Positions 887 through 12,619 of a stretch of 13,185 nucleotides of DNA are shown one piece after another. How positions within the stretch are numbered: position 1 is the first letter of the stretch; each line of letters begins with the position of its first letter. Origin of the DNA: Pelagophyceae sp. CCMP2097 (taxonomy: Eukaryota > Sar > Pelagophyceae); assembly GCA_026770575.1 (NCBI GenBank), contig MU657897.1, positions 3,464-16,648 on the forward strand, written 5' to 3'. Below the pieces are notes generated by a model, which was not told where the DNA came from, made no database searches, and worked only from the letters and a program-made list of their open reading frames with translations. A program made the position numbers and the translations under genes.

Positions 887-1277
887 AGAGAGTAGGTTCA
901 CACGACGCGTCTCTTCTCAGAGGGTCTTCGCCCGAGCCAATTTCTGAACACGAGGACGGATTTGATATGTATTCCGGCAAGGAGGTCCAGGAGATGCAGT
1001 CGCATCGGATGGGCCCAGCAAGACGCACGCCGGGCGAGAACTTGCACGCGAAACGTTTAAACGAGTCAAATCGCGACGGAAAAGCTCCAATAATCCCGGG
1101 ATTTTCACTAGGAATCCCCATTTGCGCAAGGAACATTTTGCTTTCTGTTCACATGAGATTTCACATGGGAGGTTACGGAGGAAGCGTCAATCAACGCGGT
1201 GCGGCCCTGAGAGGTTCGACTTGCCGTCCAGCGGTTTATCGGCGGCGGCGCGTCTTTTTTTTTTGCCGCCGCGGTGC
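871..1277. other. Upstream region of the first plus-strand gene; no gene seen
   Basis: I see no recognisable gene here. The notable element is a run of ten T at 1255-1264, just 13 bp before the chosen ATG at 1278. The reading frame of the downstream gene stays open back to about 1122 without an upstream ATG, so a spliced N-terminal extension cannot be excluded. GC content rises sharply at about 1260, which fits the start of coding sequence. Confidence 0.5.
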
Positions 1278-3509
1278 ATGGAGGGCGCGCCGCTGGTGCG
1301 CGTGCGGCGCGCGGCCGATTCGGCGGGCGGGCGTGTCTGGGTCGTGTTAAAAGTGCGCTTACGCGACGGTTCGCTCTTCGTCGACGGCGCCGCCGCGGCG
1401 AGAGGTTTTGCGTTCCGCGCAACGCTCGCCGTCGACGCGGCGCTGACCCTCGAAGACGCCGCAGACGCGCTTCAGCTGACTCAATTAAACGGCGCGTGGC
1501 GCGTCACGCTCGCCGCGCGGCCCGCGGCGGGGCTGGCCGTCGTCGACGCGGAAGGGGACGAGCCGCGCGCGCGTGACGGCGCAGGCGACGACCGCATCGC
1601 GTCCGAGCGACGCGCGCGCTTCGCGCCTGACGTTTTAGAGCCGGGCTTTGGGGATGAAGGACTGCCACGCGCCGCCGCCGAGGCGCCGCAAGGCCGGCGC
1701 GCGTCGACGCCGCCCGTCAATTTCTCGCTACAATACAACTACGACGACGACGACGACGACTACAGCGACGACGACGAGGCAGCAGACGCCGCGCACGAAG
1801 AAGACGGAGGAGCGGGGCGGGACGACGGCGCGCAGGACGATCGACGGGCGTGCTTCGCGCCCGACGACCTCCGGGGCGAAGAGCCGCACGAGGCCGCCGC
1901 CGAGGCGCCGCGAGACAGGGGCTCTTCGACACCGCCCGTCAAGTTCTCTTTGCAGTATAACTACGACGACGACGACGACGAGGCAGCGGCAGCGAGCGAT
2001 GACGATGACGACGAGGCCGCGCAGGGGTTATTTTCGAGCAACCCATCGTACCGCGACGACGGCTGGCGCTTGGACGACCAGGCGCCTCTACCGACCAGAC
2101 TGCACGACGACGCGTACGGCGACTGGGGCTTCACGCCCGCCAACGCCGCGGACGACGCCGACGGCGCCGCGGTGCAGAGCGACTATGCAGACGACGACGC
2201 CGACGGCATCGTGGACGACGATGCGGCGGCCGCCTTCGATTCCGCCGAGGCGCACTGGGCGGCGGCGCGGGTGCAGAGCGTCGCCCGCGGCGCGCAGGCG
2301 CGGGCCCGCGCGGGCTCGCGCGCGGCGATTGAGGGCCGGCGCCGCGACGCCGAGCGCTTCGAAGAGGAGTCCGACGCGGCGACGGTCGTCGAGGCGGCGT
2401 GCCGCGGCGGCATCCTACGACTGCGGGCGGTGCGAGCGCGCCAGCTCCGCGACGACGCCGACGCGGCGGCGCGGGTGCGCAACGCCGTAGCAGCGGGCCA
2501 CCGCGAGCCGGCGGCGCGGCGCCGCAAGCTCGAAAGCCTTCGGTGGCGCGACGCCGAATTAGCGGCGACGCGCATCCAGTCCGCGCACCGCAGCATCGTC
2601 TCGCACGCCACGCTGGCGGCGCACCGCGCAAGAGGCCTGTCCAGGGCCGCGTCGGAGCCCCCGGCGCCGTCGCCGGGCCGCTCGTCGCAGAAAGAGGCAT
2701 CGCCGGACCCCGCGGTGCCGTCAAAGGCCGACCTCGTCAAGAAATGGATGGCCGAGCGGCCGGTCCAGAAACCGGCCGCGCTGCCGCCCGCGGCTCGCGC
2801 GCCGCCGCCGCGCCTCGCCGCCGGCCGGCTCCACGCCGCCGCCGCGCCGCCCGCGGCGGCCGCGGCGGCGGCGCGAGCGGAGGGCGCGCGGCCCTCCGCG
2901 ACCTACGACGACTGGAGCCGGCGGAAGCGGTCCGAGGCGCGGGCGCGCGCCGATCGCGCAACGGCGGCGGCGGCGGCGGTGGACGCGCGCCTGGCGCTTC
3001 GCGCGGCGCGGCGCGAGGCCCAGGACCGCGAGCGGCGCCGCAAGGCGCAGATGCAGCGCGAGGCGCTCGCGCGGCAAAAGGTCAAGGGCCGCGGCAAGAA
3101 ACGCGGCCAGCCGGCGGCCTCTCGCGGGGCCGACTTCATCGTCGGGCCCTCGTTCATCCAGGCCGCCACCGCGTACCCGGCGGCCGCCGCGGGGCCGGGC
3201 GGCGTCAGATCCTCGGCCTCGCTGCCGCACATCGCGCCGGCGCGGCAGCAGCCCGAGAGCCCGCGGCCGCCCGCCGCGACTGTCAACTCGCTGCCGGGCA
3301 TCCGCCCGTCGCCGCCGGCCGAAACGGCCGCGCCGTGGATCCGGCGGCGCGAGCAGGCGCCCAAAAAGGCCGCCGTCTCCTTTGCGGGCGACGGCGGCGG
3401 CGCGCGGGAACCGCGGCTGCCCGGCGTCCGCGGCGCGCTCGGCCGCGCCGCAGAGGAAGATTCCCTCTTGAGGCAAGTCCAAGGCCTCTGCGGCATCGCT
3501 AGCTCGTAG
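1278..3509 (+). CDS. Acidic IQ-motif (calmodulin-binding-like) protein, unknown function
   Basis: This 743-aa protein starts at the first ATG of a long open frame and ends at TAG 3507-3509. Residues 1-95 look globular and are not recognised. Residues 110-160 and 188-234 are a duplicated block (consensus RRA-FAPD, then AAAEAP, then STPPV-FSLQYNY followed by an Asp run). Residues 155-320 are very acidic. Residues 326-450 carry IQ-like motifs: VQSVARGAQAR (332-342) fits the IQ consensus with V for I, VEAACRGGILR (371-381) has E for Q, V400-R409 is degenerate, and IQSAHRSIVSH (433-443) is good. Residues 545-612 form a strongly basic helical or coiled-coil stretch ending KVKGRGKKRG; the C-terminus is disordered. 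IQ motifs in other proteins bind calmodulin or myosin-type light chains, so a calcium-linked cytoskeletal or ciliary scaffold is possible but unproven. No membrane segment is visible. Confidence 0.72.
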   Translation: MEGAPLVRVRRAADSAGGRVWVVLKVRLRDGSLFVDGAAAARGFAFRATLAVDAALTLEDAADALQLTQLNGAWRVTLAARPAAGLAVVDAEGDEPRARDGAGDDRIASERRARFAPDVLEPGFGDEGLPRAAAEAPQGRRASTPPVNFSLQYNYDDDDDDYSDDDEAADAAHEEDGGAGRDDGAQDDRRACFAPDDLRGEEPHEAAAEAPRDRGSSTPPVKFSLQYNYDDDDDEAAAASDDDDDEAAQGLFSSNPSYRDDGWRLDDQAPLPTRLHDDAYGDWGFTPANAADDADGAAVQSDYADDDADGIVDDDAAAAFDSAEAHWAAARVQSVARGAQARARAGSRAAIEGRRRDAERFEEESDAATVVEAACRGGILRLRAVRARQLRDDADAAARVRNAVAAGHREPAARRRKLESLRWRDAELAATRIQSAHRSIVSHATLAAHRARGLSRAASEPPAPSPGRSSQKEASPDPAVPSKADLVKKWMAERPVQKPAALPPAARAPPPRLAAGRLHAAAAPPAAAAAAARAEGARPSATYDDWSRRKRSEARARADRATAAAAAVDARLALRAARREAQDRERRRKAQMQREALARQKVKGRGKKRGQPAASRGADFIVGPSFIQAATAYPAAAAGPGGVRSSASLPHIAPARQQPESPRPPAATVNSLPGIRPSPPAETAAPWIRRREQAPKKAAVSFAGDGGGAREPRLPGVRGALGRAAEEDSLLRQVQGLCGIASS
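1605..1979 (+). repeat. In-frame duplicated block with GAC (poly-Asp) tracts
   Basis: Segments 1605-1757 and 1839-1979 encode related peptides. The offset is 234 bp at the FAPD motif and 222 bp at the STPPV motif, so a 12-bp (4-codon) difference separates the copies. Each ends in a pure GAC run (1742-1759, 1964-1981). The most conserved core, S-T-P-P-V-x-F-S-L-Q-Y-N-Y, is not low complexity. Confidence 0.85.
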
Positions 3510-3668
3510 ATTCATCCTAAGTAAATATGTTTATAACGCCGTCGGCACGGCCTCGGTGCATCGAAGCGCGCGAGGAGTCTGCGCCGCACCTCGCATCGGC
3601 CCCGGGGCCCGGATCAATGTCGGAATTGGTGCAGTTCCGGGGGCGCGGTGATTTGGCGACGGGTCGCG
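3510..3668. promoter_or_regulatory. Intergenic gap between two plus-strand genes, with an upstream ATG
   Basis: A short AT-rich patch follows the stop codon (TAAGTAAATATGTTTATAAC, 3518-3537). It includes an AGTAAA-like sequence that could serve as a polyadenylation signal. ATGs at 3527 and 3617 open a different frame that runs to 3793 and overlaps the next gene. They may lie upstream of its transcription start or may be uORFs. This is a positional inference. Confidence 0.3.
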
Positions 3669-5147
3669 ATGCTCCGCTGCTGGCGAGCCCGGGCTGTTGG
3701 GCGCGTCGCGGCGGCGCGCCGCTTCGGCGACGCGTCCCAGAAGGCGCCGGCGCCGCAGCCGAGCCACCGGCCCCTCGGCGCCCGGCCGGCTAAAACGCGG
3801 TCGGCGCCGGTGCCGTCCAAGGCGGCGCCGGCGGAGTCGGCGCTGGCGGAGTCGGCGAAGCCAAAGCGCAAGTTGGACCTGCGCGAGCTGCGGTCGGGTT
3901 CCGCCGCGGAGGCGCCGGAGGACGCGCCCCTGCCGACGGGCCCGGCGGAGTTGTGCGTTCGCAACATGCCTTCGCACGCGACCGCTTTGGACGTCCGGAA
4001 GCACTTTGCCGAAGTCTGTGAAGTGATCCACGTGCGGCTGCCCATGGACAAGGAGACGGGCGCTACGAAGGGCTACGCGTTCGTGTCAATAGCGAGGGAC
4101 GCGGCGCAAGGTGTGTGCGACAAGCTGCACCACTCGATGCTCCTCAATTCCAAGATCGCGGTCAGCGTCGCCAAGTCGGCGGTGAAGCAGCCGCCGACGA
4201 CGAAGCAGAAGCAGCGCAACGCGAAGAACGCTGCTATTGCCATCAATAAGAAGTTGGTCACCTTTGGTCAGGCCGAGCACATTCTCAGTGTCTTCGACGT
4301 CAAGGCCGCCGACTTCAACCACGTCAACCTCACCACGGCCCTGCACCGCCTCGGCTTACTCGGGCCGGTGCCCGAATCGCAGCTGCCCGCGCTGGGCCGG
4401 CTGGTGGACCGCGCCGCATCGAGTATATCATGCGACGAGGCCAACGACTGGGACGCGCGCGGTCTGGCAAACGCCTGCTGGGGCGTCGCCAAGCTCGGCG
4501 CCGCCGCAAACGCGGGGGTGTTCTTCGACGCCGCGGCTTTGGACGCTTCGAGGAAGATTGCCACGTTCACCGCGCAGGAGCTCGCCAACACCGCCTGGGC
4601 CTTTGCGACGGCAGACCGCGCGGCGCCGTTGCTTTTCGAGGCCCTGGCCGCCGAGGCGGCGTTGAAGGTGGAGGCGTTTACGCCGCAGAACCTCGCCAAC
4701 ACTGCTTGGGCCTTTGCGCAGGCGGGCGTCGAGGCGCCTTTGCTATTTGGAGCCCTTTCCGCAGAGTCCTTGCGCAAGGTGGCCGGCTTCAACCCAAAGG
4801 ACTTTGCGAGCACGGCGTGGGCGTTTTCCAAGGCGGGCATCGAGGCGCCTTTGTTGTTCGCGGCAATTGCCGCGGGCGCGCCGTCTAAAATCGCCGCCTT
4901 CAACGCGCACGAACTCTCCAACATCGCCTGGGCGTTTGCAAACGCCGGCGTTGCCGTTCCGCAGTTGTTCGACGCCGTCGCAGAGGTGTCGCTCGCCAAG
5001 GTGGACACGTTCACTGCGCCCGCGCTCGCAAACACACTCTGGGCGTTTTCCACGGCCAAGTTCGAGGCACCCATCCTCGTCGAAGCCATGAACAACGCAA
5101 AGGCCGTGCTAGACGCGCGCGCCGAAAACGCCGAAGCGCAACCGTAA
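3669..5147 (+). CDS. Probable mitochondrial RNA-binding protein: RRM plus 37-residue LANTAWAF repeats
   Basis: The first ATG in this frame gives a 492-aa protein ending at TAA 5145-5147. Residues 1-20 (MLRCWRARAVGRVAAARRFG) are Arg/Ala-rich with no acidic residue, like a mitochondrial presequence. Residues 93-171 are an RRM with RNP2 LCVRNM (95-100) and RNP1 KGYAFVSI (134-141), the latter with both aromatic or hydrophobic RNA-stacking positions. A Lys/Gln-rich linker (172-197) follows. From 266 to the end are six helical repeats with cores LANACWGVAKLG, LANTAWAFATAD, LANTAWAFAQAG, FASTAWAFSKAG, LSNIAWAFANAG and LANTLWAFSTAK, starting at 266, 305, 342, 379, 416 and 453. Such repeats resemble OPR/FASTK-like organelle RNA-processing proteins. 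A C-terminal RAP domain, common in that group, is absent. The likely role is stability, processing or translation of organelle transcripts. A plastid location is also possible. Confidence 0.82.
   Translation: MLRCWRARAVGRVAAARRFGDASQKAPAPQPSHRPLGARPAKTRSAPVPSKAAPAESALAESAKPKRKLDLRELRSGSAAEAPEDAPLPTGPAELCVRNMPSHATALDVRKHFAEVCEVIHVRLPMDKETGATKGYAFVSIARDAAQGVCDKLHHSMLLNSKIAVSVAKSAVKQPPTTKQKQRNAKNAAIAINKKLVTFGQAEHILSVFDVKAADFNHVNLTTALHRLGLLGPVPESQLPALGRLVDRAASSISCDEANDWDARGLANACWGVAKLGAAANAGVFFDAAALDASRKIATFTAQELANTAWAFATADRAAPLLFEALAAEAALKVEAFTPQNLANTAWAFAQAGVEAPLLFGALSAESLRKVAGFNPKDFASTAWAFSKAGIEAPLLFAAIAAGAPSKIAAFNAHELSNIAWAFANAGVAVPQLFDAVAEVSLAKVDTFTAPALANTLWAFSTAKFEAPILVEAMNNAKAVLDARAENAEAQP
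4464..5066 (+). repeat. Six in-frame units of about 111 bp (37-residue repeats)
   Basis: Unit cores begin near 4464, 4581, 4692, 4803, 4914 and 5025. The spacing is 117 bp, then 111 bp four times. The third and fourth units share GTCGAGGCGCCTTTG/ATCGAGGCGCCTTTG, so DNA identity between neighbours is high enough to suggest recent tandem duplication. Confidence 0.8.
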
Positions 5148-5341: not shown

Positions 5342-8300
5342 CTAGGGCTGAAAGGTCGGGGCCGCCGTCGGGGCGCCGTCGACGTGGCTGTCGGCCTTGG
5401 GTGCGGCCGTTTCCGCCTCTGGAATTCGTTCGTCTTGGGGTACGTGTATTGGCGCGTTGTTCCTATGCGAGTCATCAACCCATTCGGCCTCGGCGGGCTG
5501 CTCGGCCTGCTGCTGCGCAGGAGCCTGCGCGCTCGCCTGCTCGTCGGCCCGCGCCTCGCCGCGCCACCAGCCTTCGCCGCCGTCCGGCCGCGCCTCCGAG
5601 TCTGGCGCGTCGACGCGCGGAGCGCCGGCCGCGCCCGCGTCGCCGGCGGGCTCGAACCGCGGCTGTGTCGGCGGCTCGTTTGTCGTGTCGTGCGCCGCCG
5701 GCGCGTCGCCCTTTGGCTCGTGCGCCTCTGCGCCGCGCCGCTTCTTCGCCTCCTCTTGCAGCTTCCATGCGCGGAGCTGCTCGAGGTACGTAATCGTCTG
5801 CTGCTGCTTGACCACGGCGGCGCGCTGCAGCACCAACTCCTGCTGCTGCTGCTGCGCCGCCGCCGCGCGCTGCTGCTGCTGCTGCGCGGCGAGCTGCAGT
5901 TGTTGCTGTTGCGCGAATTGCAACTGCTGCTGCTGATGCGCCAGAGCCTGCTGCTGCAGCTGCTGCAGGATCAAAGCCTCGCCGAGCGGCCGGCCGTAGG
6001 CGTTGAACTGCTGCGGCGGCATCTGTTGCGCTAGCTGCTGCTGCGCGAGCTGGCGCTGCAGCTGCTGCTGCAGGCCCTGGCTCCGGTACTGCTGCGTGAG
6101 CTGCGCCTGCTGCCAGGCGAGCTGTTGCTGCTGAGCAAGCACCGGCCCCGCCAGCGACTCCCACCCGACGAGCTGCTGCCGCCACTCGGCGACCATTTGG
6201 TTGAACTCGCGCGTCGACGTCTTGATGGTCACGTCGGGCGTCAGCGGGTCGCCGCGGCGCCGCAGGTGCTTGGGTACCGCGCGCACGTAGCGGTCGTACG
6301 CCGGCGACGTGAGGTCGTAGAAGAGCACTTTTTTTCGCTGCGCGATGAGGTGCGGGTCCGTCTCCAGCGTCGACCGCCGGTCCAGCTCGGGCGCCGCGCC
6401 GCCCTGGTGCAGTGCCGAGTACGACGGCAGCATGGCGAAGAACGCGCCCGCCGCGGCCGCGTCGACGGCCGCATCGCCGGCCGGCGCCGCAGCAGCTCGC
6501 TGCTGCTGCTGCAGCAGCTGCTCTGCCTGCTGGCGCTGCTGCTGCTCTGCCTGGTGGCGCTGCTGCTGCTGCTGAAGCTGCAGGAAGTAGGCCTGCTGCT
6601 CCTGCTGCTGGAGCTGCAGCAGCTGAGCCTGTTGTCGAAGTAGCTGCTGCTCGTGCTGCTGCTGCTGCTGCATCTGCGCGAGCTGCGCCGCCGCCTGAGA
6701 CTGCGGCGGCGGACCGCCGCGCGCCTGCAGCTGCTGTGCGTACGCCGCGCCGCCGGGCGCGTACATGGTGCCGCCGGGCGCGTACGGAGCGCCGTTGGGC
6801 GGCGCATACGGGGCGCCATTGGGCGCGTACGCGGCGCCGTTGGAAGCGTAACCAGCGCCGCCGGGCGCGTATGGGGCGCCGTTGGGCGCGCCGGGCGGCA
6901 GCTGCACCCATTGCTGCTCGAGGCGCTGCTGCTGCACCTGCTGCTGCTGAAGCAGCTGCTGGTGTTGCACCTGGTGTAGCCGCAGCTGCTGCTGCCGCTC
7001 CTGCGCCAGCTGCCGCTGCGCAGGCGGCGACAGCGCCGGCGGCGGCCGCAGCGGCGACGGCGGTTGCAGCGGCGACGTCTGCGCGCCGGCGCGCTGCTGC
7101 GCGGGAAAGGGCTGCGGCGGCGACGTCTGCGCGGCGGCGCGCTGTTGCGCGGCGAAGGGCTGCTGCGGCGACTGCCCCTGCGGCCGGTTCGCGGGCCAGT
7201 CGCCCGGCGCCTCGTCGTCGAGCCGCGCGCGCTTCGGCGGCGGCGGCGCGTCAAACGGCTCGTCGAACGGCGCGTCGAACGGCGCGTCAAACGGCGGGCG
7301 ACGATGAGTCGGCGTAGCTTCAAACGACGGCGCGTCGTGGTCGCCCGCCGGCGTCGCGCAGCCCGCGCGCGCATCCGGGCCGCCCGGCGCGCCCGCGCCG
7401 CTGGGAAAGCCCGGCGAGTGGCGCCCGCCGCGGTGGTCGCCGTACGCCTCGTCCGAGGCCTCTTGCGCGCCGGGCCGCGGCGCCGCGCGCAAGACGCCGC
7501 CACGGTCCGCCGCGTCCGGCGCCGCACGCGGCGGCGCGCCGCCGGCGCTTTGCGGCGGCTGCCAGTCTATCGACGCGGCCGCGGGCCGCGCATCCGGCTG
7601 CTGCCAGTCGGGCTGCGCGCCGACCGGCTGCTGGTCGGCGTGCGGCTTCTGCCAGTCGAGCGAATCGGCCGCGGGCCACTGCCGGCCGGCCGCCGCCTGG
7701 CTCGCGGCCGCGCTGTCGCCGTCGCGGAGCGGGTCGTCCGCGTCGGCGCCGTACGGCGAGGAGTTTGTACCCGACCGCCGCGGAGTTTGTGCCGGCAAGG
7801 AGTTAGATCCCGCCTCGGCGTTGTACGGCACGCCCGCGCTGCCGCCGCGGTAGTCGACGGGCGCGTCGCGGTGGTAGCCGCCCGGTTGGCCGCCGCGGTG
7901 CGGCGTCTCCGCGGCACGGAGGCCTGGCGCGCCGCTCGGCGAGCCGTCGGGAAAGGCGCGCGCGTCGTCCCGCGCGTAGGCCGAACGCGCAAAGTACTCG
8001 TCGACGTACCGGACAACGTCGAGCGCCGTCGCCTGGTTGAAGTCGTAGCGGTCCTGGAGACCGCGCGCCTCCGCGCGGTCCGCCACCAAAACGTCGGAGA
8101 GCATCGATGCGACGGAGCCCCGGTGCGCCTCGTCGAGCGACCCGCGCGCGACGTGCTTGTCCAGCGCGCGGGAGACGCCCGCGGTCATCGCGGCCTGGAA
8201 CGCGTCGAACCGGCCGTGGCGCCGCTCCTGCGCGGCCGTCGGCGGCTGCGCCGCCCGGACGCCGCTCCGGTCGCCGCCGTCGAAATCGGCACCCCGCGGC

Positions 8301-10708
8301 GGCTCGCCGTTGCGCGACCAGTCGGCGTAGCGCGCTTCGTTCGCGTAGCGTGGTTCGTGGCCGACGGCGCGGCCACGGATGCGGCCGCCGCCGACGACGG
8401 CGCGGCTCGAGGGGTCGTAGGACGCGTCGCGGTCGCTGTAGGAGTCCGCAGAGCGGTACGTGGCCGTCAGCTCGTGCGGGCCCGTGTACTCGTGCCGCGA
8501 GTCGTGCGTGCCCGCGTACACGTGCGCGCCCCGCGGCGACGGCCGAGCGTCGGCGCGGCCTGTCGGCGCGCGGCCGGCGGGCGGCGCGCGCGCGGGCGGC
8601 GGCGCGGCGGGCGGCGCGGTGCGCTCCTGCGCCGCCGTCGCGATGATCTTGGCCGCCGCGGCGACGGCGGCGCGCGGCGAGAGCGACTCGTTCAGGACGG
8701 CCTTGCGCATCACTTCATTGCGGCGCGCGCAGCGCTCGAGCCTTTCGAGGAGCGCGTCGTAGAGCCCGTCGTCGGCGGCCCCTCCTGCCTTGGCGTACGC
8801 CGCCGTCTCGAGGTCGATGGCGGCGCGCTGCGCGACTTGTTCGTCGAAGTCGCTGCCCTCGGTAACCAGGCTCGCGAAGAGGCGCCGCCGCTGCGCCTTG
8901 CGCGTCTCGACGGAGACGTAAACGTTTGGCCGCGGCGACTTGCCGGCCGCGCCGTACTTGCCGCGCGGCGGCGGCGGCGGTGGGTCGTCGTCGCCGTAGG
9001 GTTCATCCGCGTAGGCTCCTGCCGAACGCGCGTCGGGCGCGGCCTGCCGCCCGGCCGCGCGCGAGAAGCGGCGGCCCGCGGCTTCCGGACCAGCGGCGCC
9101 GTGGCCCGAGGCGTCGGCAGCCGGCGGGTTAGCGCGCCGCTTGCCGCCGGCGCCGCGCTGCGCGCTGGCCCAGCCGCTGCCCGGCGCCGCGGACTTCGAC
9201 TGCCGCACGCCGACGCGCGCCTGCGCCTTGTCGCGCGCGGCCCCGCCGTACATCCCGCGCGGCGGCGGCGACGTGCGGCCGGCGGCGACGGCGTCTTGCG
9301 CGTCGGCCGCCGCCGCTTTGGCGCGCTTGTGGCCGCCGCGCTGGGGCGCGTCGGCGCCGCAGTCGGCGTCGGCGTCGCGCTCGTCGAGGACGAGGACGCT
9401 GTCGACATGGCGCGCCGCGGCCTTGCTCGTCGCCAGGGTCGAGGACCGTTTGGAGTCTGCGTCCTCGTCCAAAGCGAGCTGCGCGAGGTACCTGCGGTTC
9501 AGGTGCGGTGCCTTGTCGGCGACGAGGACGAACCCCGCGCGCTTCGCCCAGTCCGCCGCCTGCGCTGAAGGCAGGAAGATGGCCGCGAGGGACTGCTGGC
9601 GGCAGAATTGCAGCAGCGCGGGCAGCAGCGTCTCGCAGGCGTTGGCGCCCGCCTTTTGCGCGATTGCCTCGATGAAGAGGATGGTGCTCGACGGGCCCGC
9701 GCCGGCCTGGTCTGGCGTCGACCCGGCCGCGGGTGCCTTTTCGACCATCTTCGTTGCGGCCACGCTAACAGACCGGAAGGCGCACATCGTCGTCACGGCG
9801 CCGTCGACGGCGATGGTGACGACGGTCTTGGTGCTGTCCTTCAAGCCGCCGCCGGCGCATCTCGCGACAAATGCCGCGTCGGGCCTCCAGACGGCTTCCG
9901 CGCGCGCGGCCAGGTCCCTTGCCTGACGCAGCAGCTCCGAATCGTCCGAGTTCGCCTCGAGCATTATGCACCGCTCCGTCGCGTGCGGCTGAGAAAGCAT
10001 CTCGCCGCAGACCCACCGGGCCGTCTCGCGCGGGAAGGATTTGAGCACGTCGTCCACCACGTCGTCCGGCGCGCCGCCGCCGCCCGCGGACGAGCCCTCG
10101 AGAGCCACGCAGGCGTCGAGCCATCCCTTGACACCGCGGTCGTCGAGGCACCTGCGGTGCTCGACGAGGTCCGCGCGCTCCAGCGCGGTCAGCGACCGCT
10201 GCTGCCAGTACATGTCACCATAATCGACCCAGACGATCTCGCCCGCCTCGATGGTCCGCGTCGAGATGAGAAAGATCCAGCACTTGCCGTCGCGCTCCAC
10301 CTCGCAAAACGTCGTGTTCGGGTGCGATTCGGCCTCTCGCCGCGGGCCGTGGAAGTCGTTGACGTACGCCGCCGGGTTGCCCAGCGGGTCGAGGTAGGGT
10401 AGGCAGCAGAGCTCGTCGCCGTGCGCGATGGAGTACGCGTACTCTCCCCAGTTCTTTACCTCTATAGGGTCCATGAGGCCGAGGAGGCCGGCGATGGTCT
10501 GCGACGGACCAATGTAGCCCGCGAACTCGAGGGGCGCGCCCGCCGGGATATTTTGGCACGCCAAAACCTCGAGCTGACCGTGCAGCGGGCCGGGCCGGAC
10601 GACGCGCGCCGTCTTGACGCTCTGCACAAAGTGGCCGCGCTCGCCGTCGATGATGCGGTTAATCTCCTCCCTGTCCACCCGCCCGTGCTCCTTGATCGGG
10701 TAGTCCAT
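5342..10708 (-). CDS. Multidomain chromatin/RNA protein: SET, GNAT-like, TFIIS-central-like, SRI-like and SLBP RNA-binding domains
   Basis: One uninterrupted frame of 1788 codons. SET domain, residues 44-170: IPAGAPLEFAGYIG (54-67), AYVNDFHG with NTTFCEVE (114-138) and GEIVWVDYGDMYW (156-168); no Cys-rich pre-SET. GNAT-like fold, about 294-400: LFIEAIAQ (344-351), QKAGANA in the acetyl-CoA loop position, IFLPSAQAADWAKRAGF (377-393). TFIIS-central-like, about 602-695, with NEVMRKAVLNESLSP (664-678). SRI-like helices, about 832-907, ending VVRYVDEYF. Gln-rich and Pro-rich disorder fills most of 910-1445. SLBP RNA-binding domain, 1447-1518: ETDPHLIAQRKK, AYDRYVRAVPKHLR, DPLTPD, then AEWRQQLVGWE. 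A Gln-rich tail (1524-1640) follows. SET and SLBP calls are strong; GNAT is moderate; TFIIS and SRI are tentative. The inferred role is nuclear, coupling histone modification or polymerase II to histone mRNA. The frame stays open 32 codons upstream of the ATG, with plausible sequence, so the true N-terminus may be spliced. Confidence 0.85.
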   Translation of the reverse strand: MDYPIKEHGRVDREEINRIIDGERGHFVQSVKTARVVRPGPLHGQLEVLACQNIPAGAPLEFAGYIGPSQTIAGLLGLMDPIEVKNWGEYAYSIAHGDELCCLPYLDPLGNPAAYVNDFHGPRREAESHPNTTFCEVERDGKCWIFLISTRTIEAGEIVWVDYGDMYWQQRSLTALERADLVEHRRCLDDRGVKGWLDACVALEGSSAGGGGAPDDVVDDVLKSFPRETARWVCGEMLSQPHATERCIMLEANSDDSELLRQARDLAARAEAVWRPDAAFVARCAGGGLKDSTKTVVTIAVDGAVTTMCAFRSVSVAATKMVEKAPAAGSTPDQAGAGPSSTILFIEAIAQKAGANACETLLPALLQFCRQQSLAAIFLPSAQAADWAKRAGFVLVADKAPHLNRRYLAQLALDEDADSKRSSTLATSKAAARHVDSVLVLDERDADADCGADAPQRGGHKRAKAAAADAQDAVAAGRTSPPPRGMYGGAARDKAQARVGVRQSKSAAPGSGWASAQRGAGGKRRANPPAADASGHGAAGPEAAGRRFSRAAGRQAAPDARSAGAYADEPYGDDDPPPPPPRGKYGAAGKSPRPNVYVSVETRKAQRRRLFASLVTEGSDFDEQVAQRAAIDLETAAYAKAGGAADDGLYDALLERLERCARRNEVMRKAVLNESLSPRAAVAAAAKIIATAAQERTAPPAAPPPARAPPAGRAPTGRADARPSPRGAHVYAGTHDSRHEYTGPHELTATYRSADSYSDRDASYDPSSRAVVGGGRIRGRAVGHEPRYANEARYADWSRNGEPPRGADFDGGDRSGVRAAQPPTAAQERRHGRFDAFQAAMTAGVSRALDKHVARGSLDEAHRGSVASMLSDVLVADRAEARGLQDRYDFNQATALDVVRYVDEYFARSAYARDDARAFPDGSPSGAPGLRAAETPHRGGQPGGYHRDAPVDYRGGSAGVPYNAEAGSNSLPAQTPRRSGTNSSPYGADADDPLRDGDSAAASQAAAGRQWPAADSLDWQKPHADQQPVGAQPDWQQPDARPAAASIDWQPPQSAGGAPPRAAPDAADRGGVLRAAPRPGAQEASDEAYGDHRGGRHSPGFPSGAGAPGGPDARAGCATPAGDHDAPSFEATPTHRRPPFDAPFDAPFDEPFDAPPPPKRARLDDEAPGDWPANRPQGQSPQQPFAAQQRAAAQTSPPQPFPAQQRAGAQTSPLQPPSPLRPPPALSPPAQRQLAQERQQQLRLHQVQHQQLLQQQQVQQQRLEQQWVQLPPGAPNGAPYAPGGAGYASNGAAYAPNGAPYAPPNGAPYAPGGTMYAPGGAAYAQQLQARGGPPPQSQAAAQLAQMQQQQQHEQQLLRQQAQLLQLQQQEQQAYFLQLQQQQQRHQAEQQQRQQAEQLLQQQQRAAAAPAGDAAVDAAAAGAFFAMLPSYSALHQGGAAPELDRRSTLETDPHLIAQRKKVLFYDLTSPAYDRYVRAVPKHLRRRGDPLTPDVTIKTSTREFNQMVAEWRQQLVGWESLAGPVLAQQQQLAWQQAQLTQQYRSQGLQQQLQRQLAQQQLAQQMPPQQFNAYGRPLGEALILQQLQQQALAHQQQQLQFAQQQQLQLAAQQQQQRAAAAQQQQQELVLQRAAVVKQQQTITYLEQLRAWKLQEEAKKRRGAEAHEPKGDAPAAHDTTNEPPTQPRFEPAGDAGAAGAPRVDAPDSEARPDGGEGWWRGEARADEQASAQAPAQQQAEQPAEAEWVDDSHRNNAPIHVPQDERIPEAETAAPKADSHVDGAPTAAPTFQP
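5784..6135 (-). repeat. Impure CAG/CTG tract (Gln-rich coding, C-terminal block)
   Basis: On the plus strand this reads as runs of CTG interrupted by TTG, CGC and GAG-like triplets; in the minus-strand gene it encodes roughly residues 1524-1640, mostly Gln with Leu and Ala. The longest pure runs are only about five to six triplets (for example 5871-5885), so interruptions probably stabilise it. Confidence 0.85.
6490..6672 (-). repeat. Impure CAG/CTG tract (Gln-rich coding, central block)
   Basis: This encodes roughly residues 1346-1405 of the SET/SLBP protein, Gln-rich with Leu, Arg and Glu. It lies directly N-terminal to the SLBP-type domain, so that RNA-binding domain sits between two polyglutamine-rich arms. 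A further CTG-rich patch lies at 6905-7015. Confidence 0.85.
6737..6895 (-). repeat. Short-period repeat encoding YAPNGAP/YAPGG units
   Basis: Residues 1272-1324 are imperfect units of the type A-P-Y-A-P-N-G and Y-A-P-G-G. In DNA, GGGCGCGTAC-like blocks recur every 15-30 bp (near 6749, 6776, 6821, 6860). It is a disordered linker in the large minus-strand gene. Confidence 0.8.
7244..7291 (-). repeat. 12-bp tandem repeat encoding FDAP units
   Basis: Four copies of a 12-bp unit encode FDAPFDAPFDEPFDAP (residues 1140-1155). On the plus strand the unit reads like GGCGCGTCGAAC. Just downstream in the protein is PPPPKRARLDD (1155-1165), whose KRAR resembles a nuclear localisation signal. Confidence 0.85.
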
Positions 10709-11259
10709 GGGGCCGATGCGCAGCGACTTGGAAGCGCCGCAGTTGCGCGCGGCGTCCGTCAGGTGCTTGGACGTCTTGGGCCAGTCGACCCTAGGATCGT
10801 ATAGTCAAAGGCGCATCCACCTCCCTCGAATACGACGACCGTGGGCCCGAGCAGGTGCCCTCCCTCGCGGCCGTCATGATATTTTGACGACGCGTCACGG
10901 GTCGCTCGTTCAAAAGGTTCGAATAGAAAAAGTTCGACAAGAGCAAGCGACGTACTTGGACCGCAGCATCGACATGGAGATGAGTTCCTACAGGCCGCCG
11001 CGTTTGTAGGGATGCGGACGCAGCAGAAAATGAAACGCCGTATTTTGCAAGCACGCGTGAGTCGACGTCGTCCCTGGCGGCTCGAGCCTCTCGTCTCCCG
11101 GAGAGACGCTTCGGGCGCGCGGCCCGGCCCAGCGGGCCCCGGTTCGATCAACGCATCAGATGAAGCAGCTGCACGGCGCACCTTGACTCGCTTGAGCTCG
11201 TGTTTGCACGCGATCGCGGCATCGCCTAGCGACGGCAAAGTCTCGGCATGATCCGACAA
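10709..11259 (-). other. Region upstream of the SET/SLBP gene: possible 5' exon sequence or promoter
   Basis: From 10708 the SET/SLBP frame continues upstream to a TGA at 10805-10807. The extension reads like protein (DWPKTSKHLTDAARNCGASK, then SLRIGP before the Met). A 3' splice-site-like CCTAG ends at 10791, which would leave the extension in frame. A second minus frame is open from about 11259 to 10759 without a stop (about 166 codons) but has no ATG at its start and no domain I recognise. An AT-rich patch at 10908-10932 could equally belong to a promoter. I cannot decide between promoter and intron-containing coding sequence. Confidence 0.3.
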
Positions 11260-12619
11260 TCACTCCAGAGTCCCCAAAGAACAAAGGAGCTGGGCCGGCC
11301 CTCCCCCGATGGTCTCCGACGGAGACGTCGGAGATGGCCATCCGTCACTCGGTTTGAAAATGAGAACCGCGGGCCAGTTTTCGAGCACCCGGACCGCGTC
11401 GTCGACGAGCCTTGGGGCCCCCAGAGGACGCCCGCTAAAGACCCCTCTTCCCTTGGACTTGAATATAGCCCCCTCTCGCGAAGCGTGCATCGGCGCGGAT
11501 CTCGACTCGTCGGCCCCGGAAAGGCGAGCTGCCGAGCTTCCGCGCATAACGTCGGCCGACGTTTCCGACGGGCCTCTGCGTTCCCCTGAGCCGGACGCCG
11601 CGGCGCGCGGATGCTCGCCGAATTGATGAGCGCCTCTACGATGACACCGGCTTTGCCTCTGCGCTCGTGTTCGACGAGTGCCTCGAGCAGCGAGTGTATC
11701 GTCGCGTGCGTCCGCGCGAGCGCGCGCACGAAGCCGCCTGGAGGGATCGTCGGCCCCGCGCCCCCCCGTCGTACGCAGGGGCGCCCTCGAAAGGACCGAA
11801 CGACGAGTATCAACCCGACCGCGCGCCTCTCCGCGGGCGATGGAACGCGCGCCCCCCGCGACGGACCCCGGGCACGGATGCCCCGCGGCGTCCCTCGGAG
11901 GAGAGCAATACGGGATGGCGCCGCGCCCGTCGAACCCTCTTCCTCGGTGCGCGCCGCGCGAATGCGGACACCCGCCGGCGTGCCCGCGGCCGCAAGACGC
12001 CGGCGCTTCGCCGTGGAAGCCGATGGGCGAGACGGAGCCGCGTTCGCAGAACTCGAGGAGCGCGTGGAGCTTCTGGCGCACGATAAGGTTGTCGGCGACG
12101 AGCGAGGCGCGCGAGCCCTCGTCGGCAAAGTGGCCGCGCGGCCGCTGCGCCTCGCCGCGGTCGCAGTGCTGCGTGCACTTGGCGCAGACGTAGTCTGCGC
12201 GGGCGTTTGTCCCGGCGCGGGCGGCCGCGCGAAACCCCCGGGAGCAATAGCGGCGCCGCGGGCGGAGGCGCACCGACGGCGTCCGCGGCCTCGGAGCACG
12301 CGGCGTGCTGCCACGTGCTGCACTCCTCGCACTTGATGTACTCTGCGTACGAGTCCGAGTTCTTCGTGTGCTCGCCGCACTCGCACTCGATGACCTGAGA
12401 AGGGCGCGCCGTCGGAGGGGGCCGAAGGCGGAAAATCCGGCGCCCCGCGACCACCGCGCGCCGACTGCGCCGTCCTGGACGTACCCAGAGCGCGAGCGTC
12501 GCATGACAGGCCCAGGCTGGCGCCGCGCTGTCCTCCGCAGCCGCCGCCCCCGCGGCCGCCCCCGCGGTCGTGCGCTGCTGCCCCTCGGTGCGGTCGAGGG
12601 ACCGACCGCGTTTATGCAT
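11260..12619 (-). CDS. Spliced PHD-finger protein gene (3' part of the model uncertain)
   Basis: Proposed exons: 12619-12485 (ATG, 45 codons), 12394-12274 and 12194 onward. After splicing, the PHD finger reads with ligands C-x-C (ECECGEH), C-x2-C-x4-H-x2-C (KCEECSTWQHAAC) and, ten residues later, C-x2-C (DYVCAKC). These are all eight C4HC3 zinc ligands, with the aromatic W two residues before H. The C-x-C first pair and the S-x-W-Q-H motif are typical of Set3/MLL5- and Bye1/PHF3-type fingers, several of which bind methylated H3K4. Exon 3 continues in good frame through NLIVRQKLHALLEFCERG. Below about 12000 the frame is unclear: it stays open to TGA 11260-11262, but another minus frame carries a helix-like ATIHSLLEALVEHERRGKAG near 11690, suggesting further introns. 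A nuclear chromatin reader is likely. It may be the 5' part of the SET/SLBP gene, next on the same strand. Confidence 0.55.
12195..12273 (-). other. Predicted 79-nt intron 2, inside the PHD finger
   Basis: The donor GTCG|GTGCGC (from 12273) and acceptor CGCGCAG|ACTAC (ending 12195) give a phase-1 intron of 79 nt. Only with its removal do the first six zinc ligands (one minus-strand frame) join the last C-x2-C pair (another frame), with a newly formed GAC (Asp) codon at the junction. The spacing from HxxC to CxxC becomes 10 residues, normal for PHD fingers. Confidence 0.75.
12395..12484 (-). other. Predicted 90-nt intron 1 of the PHD-finger gene
   Basis: The donor CTCTGG|GTACGT (from 12484) and acceptor CCCTTCTCAG|GTC (ending 12395) are both strong. 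The intron is phase 0 and its length is a multiple of three with no stop, so retention would not break the frame. Its conceptual translation (RPGRRSRRAVV and similar) is unlike the flanking protein, and removal joins the short N-terminus directly to VIECECG, the start of the PHD finger. Confidence 0.6.

Follow-up and report, generated by a model that had tools for sequence, protein, structure and literature searches.

The window, a stretch of 13,185 nucleotides from Pelagophyceae sp. CCMP2097 (contig MU657897.1), carries a long minus-strand reading frame in which a predicted SET domain and an SLBP-type RNA-binding domain lie in a single frame. The ORF (5342..10708) encodes 1788 aa from an ATG at 10708 to a stop ending at 5342, exactly the uninterrupted 5.4-kb frame reported in the first-pass annotation, and belongs to a start-independent open frame of 1820 codons. 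The corresponding long exon and the two candidate exons upstream of it are bounded by predicted splice sites, read by eye from the sequence. The features of this gene are as follows:

12274..12394, minus strand: exon encoding the N-terminal portion of a PHD finger, flanked by a predicted AG acceptor (before 12394) and a predicted GT donor (after 12274)
11970..12194, minus strand: next exon, with the end of the PHD finger (DYVCAKC) and a helical stretch; 3' limit approximate
5342..10790, minus strand: long terminal exon carrying, in a single frame, the SET domain, the linker, the SLBP domain and a Q-rich tail (acceptor AG predicted at 10792-10791)
10217..10567, minus strand: SET domain, residues 48-164 (sub-threshold Pfam match, paralogue, fold search)
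9986..10138, minus strand: region after SET shared with the paralogue at C1, residues 191-241 (39% over 61 aligned positions)
9530..9697, minus strand: second region shared with C1, residues 338-393 (39% over 59 aligned positions, E 0.004)
8663..8908, minus strand: helical stretch, residues 601-682, weakly similar to the TFIIS central domain (Pfam, sub-threshold)
7955..8236, minus strand: predicted three-helix stretch, residues 825-918 (AlphaFold2)
6158..6361, minus strand: SLBP RNA-binding domain, residues 1450-1517 (Pfam, PDB matches, residue map)

Elsewhere in the window lie two plus-strand frames. Positions 3648-5147 carry a neighbour gene in which an RRM domain (E 1.1e-6) precedes tandem LANTAWAFA-type repeats; its family is remarkably expanded, with at least 157 related matches in the genome. 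A convergent gene of this kind lies beside both the window and the C1 SET loci, and a duplicated gene block was considered and dropped, given the abundance of such matches; the C1 neighbour ranks only 53rd in the match list, in which the window itself is included. Positions 1122-3509 carry a 795-aa GC-rich frame that matches no Pfam family and displays an internal repeat, STPPVxFSLQYNYDDDDD, twice, together with IQ-motif-like stretches recognized by eye. The algal nature of the genome is borne out by 60 matches to light-harvesting proteins.

Stops are absent from the frame of the long ORF, against 17 and 13 in the two alternative frames of the same strand. No stop-free frame was obtained in 300 dinucleotide shuffles of the whole exon (0/900 frames, mean 21.4 stops per frame) or in shuffles of residues 441-1440 alone (0/900, mean 10.0 stops per frame), and the openness of the ORF is thus not a matter of chance. 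The GC3-highest/GC2-lowest signature of coding sequence is observed in 33 of 35 fifty-codon windows and runs unbroken from SET to SLBP, compared with 12/55 windows in six control stretches without an assigned gene (9/36 without the L025 control stretch, L025:2801-3850, which may be partly coding). Similarly, the 30 of 261 sliding 150-base windows with a GC content below 0.58 have no overlap with the ORF. As a counterpoint, GC-rich DNA opens frames easily, and the antisense strand opposite the ORF also displays a frame of 834 aa (7064-9568); over some stretches of 100 codons, synonymous codon use scores as high for an antisense frame as for the sense frame. The 834-aa frame matches no Pfam family and was rejected as a real second gene. 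The unbroken periodicity, the lack of stops and the shuffling result together make it much likelier that the SET and SLBP parts belong to one gene than to two, in which case a single transcript would cover both.

The gene probably extends beyond the ORF, beginning upstream with PHD-finger exons as the paralogue does on contig C1 (locus L024). The single-frame SET-SLBP protein of the first-pass annotation thus stands as a joint coding frame, but the complete protein would be larger than the ORF. The Pfam PHD profile matches an ORF covering exon 12274..12394 with an E value of 0.0031, and the two PHD exons, 12394-12274 and 12194-, which join in phase, reach an E value of 0.0006 when spliced in silico, although their 20.2 bits remain below the 24-bit cut-off of PF00628. 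At C1, the paralogue's PHD exon clears this cut-off (28.7 bits vs 24). The first window exon matches this C1 exon at 52% over 23 aa, and SLVADNLIVRQKLHALLEFCE, from the exon at 11970..12194, matches the C1 paralogue at L024:911-976 with 64% over 22 aa. At both loci the PHD exons lie upstream of SET, on the same strand and in the same order.

On paralogue and model evidence we take the divergent SET domain of the ORF to be real. PF00856 matches residues 48-164, where a hit had been anticipated, but with 14.3 bits in the whole protein (E 0.057) and 19.7 bits in a 192-aa piece (E 0.0012) the match stays below the cut-off of 22.4, and the window locus is absent from the 42 genome-wide PF00856 matches at E <= 0.001. 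The C1 paralogue, which is 46% identical in the SET region (query 20-218, 199 query positions), likewise displays a sub-threshold SET (19.5 bits vs 22.4). By eye, the N...PN and DYG positions are kept in both copies, and the usual NHS reads ND. A low-confidence structure model of residues 1-440, built from a five-row alignment (mean pLDDT 41.4), gave 23 Foldseek matches against the PDB at E <= 0.001, 22 of which are titled SET methyltransferases (SETD8/SET8, MLL1, MLL5), the remaining one being a yeast COMPASS chain. The SET domain proposed earlier is therefore upheld by the fold search and the 46% identical paralogue, with a Pfam score that falls short. The best PDB sequence matches of the SET part are to ATXR5/6 and are weak (E 0.014-0.055, or 0.017-0.073 with a two-sequence profile), so the SET subfamily is left unassigned. 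The SET part may have catalytic activity and modify histones. Elsewhere in the genome, a SET match at G000:C87:82968-83234 lies within a 17920-codon frame, with one TAA inside the match, and may belong to a giant protein.

The two regions that follow SET, residues 191-241 and 338-393, match no Pfam family in either the window or the C1 copy. A GNAT acetyltransferase after SET, suggested by the core of region 338-393 as seen by eye, was rejected, as no profile match was found in the window or at C1. At C1, the PHD-SET gene seems to terminate near L024:4380, leaving about 0.5 kb to the gene that follows, and profile searches placed no SLBP domain on C1. In the window copy, the long segment between residues 440 and 1446 is of low complexity. 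Residues 601-682 match TFIIS_M (PF07500) with an E value of 0.018 and 15.9 bits against a cut-off of 29.2, and a genome-wide PF07500 search found another locus and not the window; with a sub-threshold score only, a TFIIS central domain was not retained. AlphaFold2 predicts the helices of the second stretch at model residues 236-266, 271-295 and 303-329 (overall pLDDT 47), and a fold search with the model of the middle region returned 61 matches at E <= 10 and zero at E <= 0.001. An SRI domain of Set2 (PF08236), seen by eye at about residues 830-925, was discarded, as Pfam scans of the pieces gave no match; a PF08236 search of the genome was silent throughout, as it was on the controls. Among in-genome relatives of both stretches (601-682 and 825-918), the best non-self match has an E value of 0.09.

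The SLBP RNA-binding domain, first delimited as residues 1447-1518, is confirmed. The Pfam scan of the 1788-aa translation places PF15247 (SLBP_RNA_bind), the family expected there, at residues 1450-1517 with an E value of 5.3e-15 and 55.7 bits, well above the cut-off of 27, and matches positions 1-69 of the 70 in the profile. Human SLBP (4l8r, E 3.9e-11) gives the best phmmer matches among PDB sequences, which also include the Histone RNA hairpin-binding protein chains 4tv0, 4tux and 4tuw. The fused domain is identical to human SLBP at 27/69 aligned positions. A residue map of the window, human and C63 domains (C63 being the genome's other SLBP locus), with alignment rows entered by hand, indicates that the fused domain keeps Tyr144, Tyr151, Tyr154, Arg163, Thr171, Pro172 and Arg181 (human numbering), Arg1500 being equivalent to Arg181, Thr1490 to Thr171 and Val1514 to His195. 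In contrast, Arg137 is replaced by Gln, Lys146 by Leu, Arg160 by Lys, Asn173-Lys174 by Asp-Val and His195 by Val. Thus, in the TPNK motif with the phosphorylatable Thr171, Thr1490-Pro1491 are kept and the motif reads TPDV, as it also does in the C63 SLBP. His195 is absent from the fused domain and present in the C63 SLBP, and is not known to be family-defining. PMC10388802 describes Arg181 of SLBP as making a base-specific contact to G7 of the stem-loop, and PMC5429643 describes Tyr144 and His195, both labelled 'Exo' there, as stacking on loop bases. Because Val replaces His195 and Leu replaces Lys146, RNA binding of the fused domain may be weakened or altered.

Two SLBP loci are found in the genome, the window and C63. 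The latter carries an ordinary-looking SLBP, which answers the first-pass annotation's question about a separate gene, and the fusion is thus not the sole SLBP. The C63 gene (L025:4628-5268) displays an Arg/Ser-rich N-terminus and a short intron inside the RNA-binding domain, and also reads TPDV for TPNK. The window and C63 domains are identical at 36/69 aligned positions, compared with 27 and 29, respectively, against human SLBP. They share TPDVTIK and a Gln at the Arg137 position; in contrast to the fusion, the C63 domain is split over two exons, keeps His195 and has no SET found in frame. The 36/69 identity and the shared TPDVTIK point to a duplicated copy of the SLBP gene of this alga as the most likely origin of the fused domain. 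With a separate SLBP in the genome, basic processing of histone mRNA does not require the fused copy. The long terminal exon (5342-10790) is uninterrupted at three sites where introns are predicted in the paralogues, two at C1 and one at C63, and, unlike it, the PHD exons of the window gene keep their introns. Loss of introns by reverse transcription of a spliced joint transcript would fit this pattern, which only suggests it.

The cognate ligand, a histone 3' stem-loop, is present in the genome. A search with the Rfam histone stem-loop (RF00032), in which 75 of 9824 first-look candidates were scored, gave 20 genome matches at E <= 0.001, none above the gathering score of 34 (best 31.5); one control genome, Lactococcus, also gave signals below the cut-off. 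Histone motifs are found in 18 of the 19 loci covering these matches, L010 being the one without. A 6-bp GG...CC hairpin with a 4-nt loop lies no more than 160 nt after the stop in 41/42 histone genes, namely those with enough downstream sequence in loci chosen by stem-loop matches, against a background of 17/478 stretches by the same criterion. By type, it follows H3 in 17/17 genes, H4 in 14/14, H2A in 9/9 and H2B in 1/2. The H3 count is not independent, because the loci were chosen via mostly H3 hairpins; the H4 hairpins are not among the Rfam matches and thus provide a fairer test. The alga's histone stem-loop is GGUGUUUCUUAACACC, and its stem differs from the Rfam consensus, which accounts for scores below the Rfam gathering threshold. 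The stem, GGUGUU...AACACC, is nearly invariant. Histone clusters (L010-L021, L030-L036) are many, with H3, H4, H2A and H2B in close pairs. With the hairpin after 41 of the 42 examined histone genes, an SLBP-type ligand exists in this genome.

What the computation establishes, namely the domains, an unbroken coding frame, a second SLBP gene and the stem-loops, would be best explained by one gene for a PHD-SET chromatin protein to which a long low-complexity linker and, at the C-terminus, an SLBP RNA-binding domain have been added. By binding the 3' stem-loop of histone mRNAs or their precursors, this domain would concentrate the PHD-SET module on these RNAs, most plausibly at histone genes during transcription, where the SET domain or its partners would mark chromatin or histones; the separate C63 SLBP would do the ordinary histone mRNA work. 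We tentatively assign a probability of about 45% to this scenario, in which a PHD-SET-SLBP fusion specific to the lineage would tie a chromatin protein to histone transcripts. That the fusion is a histone-mRNA-guided enzyme, in which a PHD-SET methyltransferase with its own SLBP domain rides nascent stem-loops and marks histone genes or new histones, coupling histone supply to histone modification, seems to us unlikely. The interpretation advanced in the first-pass annotation therefore survives in part: the SLBP domain, the divergent SET, the single frame and the ligand stand, but the protein would be larger, the fusion is not the sole SLBP and Val occupies the His195 position.

Other readings were weighed as well. 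In one, the fusion is real and its SLBP domain acts on histone mRNA as a competitor or regulator, by sequestering it or by altering its processing or decay, with PHD-SET as a scaffold rather than an RNA-guided enzyme. This is possible, with odds clearly against it: a separate SLBP with His at 195 exists where the fused domain has Val, and the PHD and SET scores are sub-threshold, as a degenerate SET could be, but the SET core is 46% conserved between the paralogues, including N...PN and DYG, which suggests a retained role. A drift of the fused domain to other RNAs, with no special link to histone mRNA, appears distinctly improbable. It would fit the Val for His195 and the Leu for Lys146, and PMC5429643 describes Tyr144 and His195 stacking on loop bases; however, Thr-Pro and Arg181, the latter a base-specific contact according to PMC10388802, are kept, and the ligand is still found on 41/42 examined histone genes. 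We consider it very unlikely that the ORF comprises two genes, with the PHD-SET gene closed near residue 430 by a frame-changing splice that escaped notice and the SLBP gene beginning at an internal Met. Internal Mets are present (such as 486, 1315, 1346 and 1426), the region matching 338-393 seems to lie close to the end of the C1 paralogue, and long frames arise easily in GC-rich DNA, as the 834-aa antisense frame illustrates, but the periodicity in 33/35 windows continues with no stop and no low-GC break within the ORF. A gene in decay, or an artefact of assembly or gene prediction, would be conceivable on a single short contig (16.6 kb, of 638 contigs) without visible read support, but is hardly credible when the reading frame, the codon bias and the conserved motifs persist intact across 1788 codons and the RRM-repeat neighbour, with its at least 157 in-genome matches, makes the contig look native.

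The predicted fusion presents a true SLBP domain in an architecture for which we could not find a description, although such absence is weak evidence. No fusion was found elsewhere when the SLBP region was searched against long proteins (109 candidates), when the SET part was searched (7996 candidates scored) or when the SLBP part was searched against 166-527-aa proteins (33 candidates); the window's own protein is unlisted too, so that the protein database seems poor in this lineage and the absence says little. The open-access literature likewise yielded neither an SLBP-SET fusion nor an SLBP in this lineage, which is again weak evidence. Histone production and chromatin state are usually studied as cross-talk between separate proteins. 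If true, the fusion would be a natural, direct physical link between a chromatin-type enzyme and a histone mRNA recognition domain, and would offer a simple handle on whether SLBP-type binding recruits chromatin factors to histone genes or mRNAs. In this lineage, SLBP would then have been copied and co-opted for a novel architecture, next to a stem-loop system that is conserved and works.

One close relative is the C1 PHD-SET protein, which displays PHD, SET (46% identical) and the two further shared regions in identical order; in contrast to the window copy, it has no SLBP domain found and is predicted to contain introns at sites that are uninterrupted in the window copy. In MLL5/KMT2E/SETD5/Set3 the PHD precedes SET, and the MLL5 SET is among the fold matches of the window. 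The plant ATXR5/6 proteins give the best, if weak, PDB sequence matches, and a search of the ORF for the PIP-box pattern found none; neither the MLL5-type nor the ATXR5/6 match is strong enough for a subfamily assignment. We know of no PHD-SET protein of other eukaryotes with an SLBP domain. Human SLBP is a small stand-alone protein, whereas the domain described here would form the C-terminal part of a protein of more than 1788 aa with SET. In comparison with the SLBP family (PF15247; human 4l8r/4qoz), the fusion keeps E-T-D, A-Y-D-R-Y, P-x-H-L-R, T-P, R181 and the W positions, and differs from the human protein in reading TPDV for TPNK and Val for His195.
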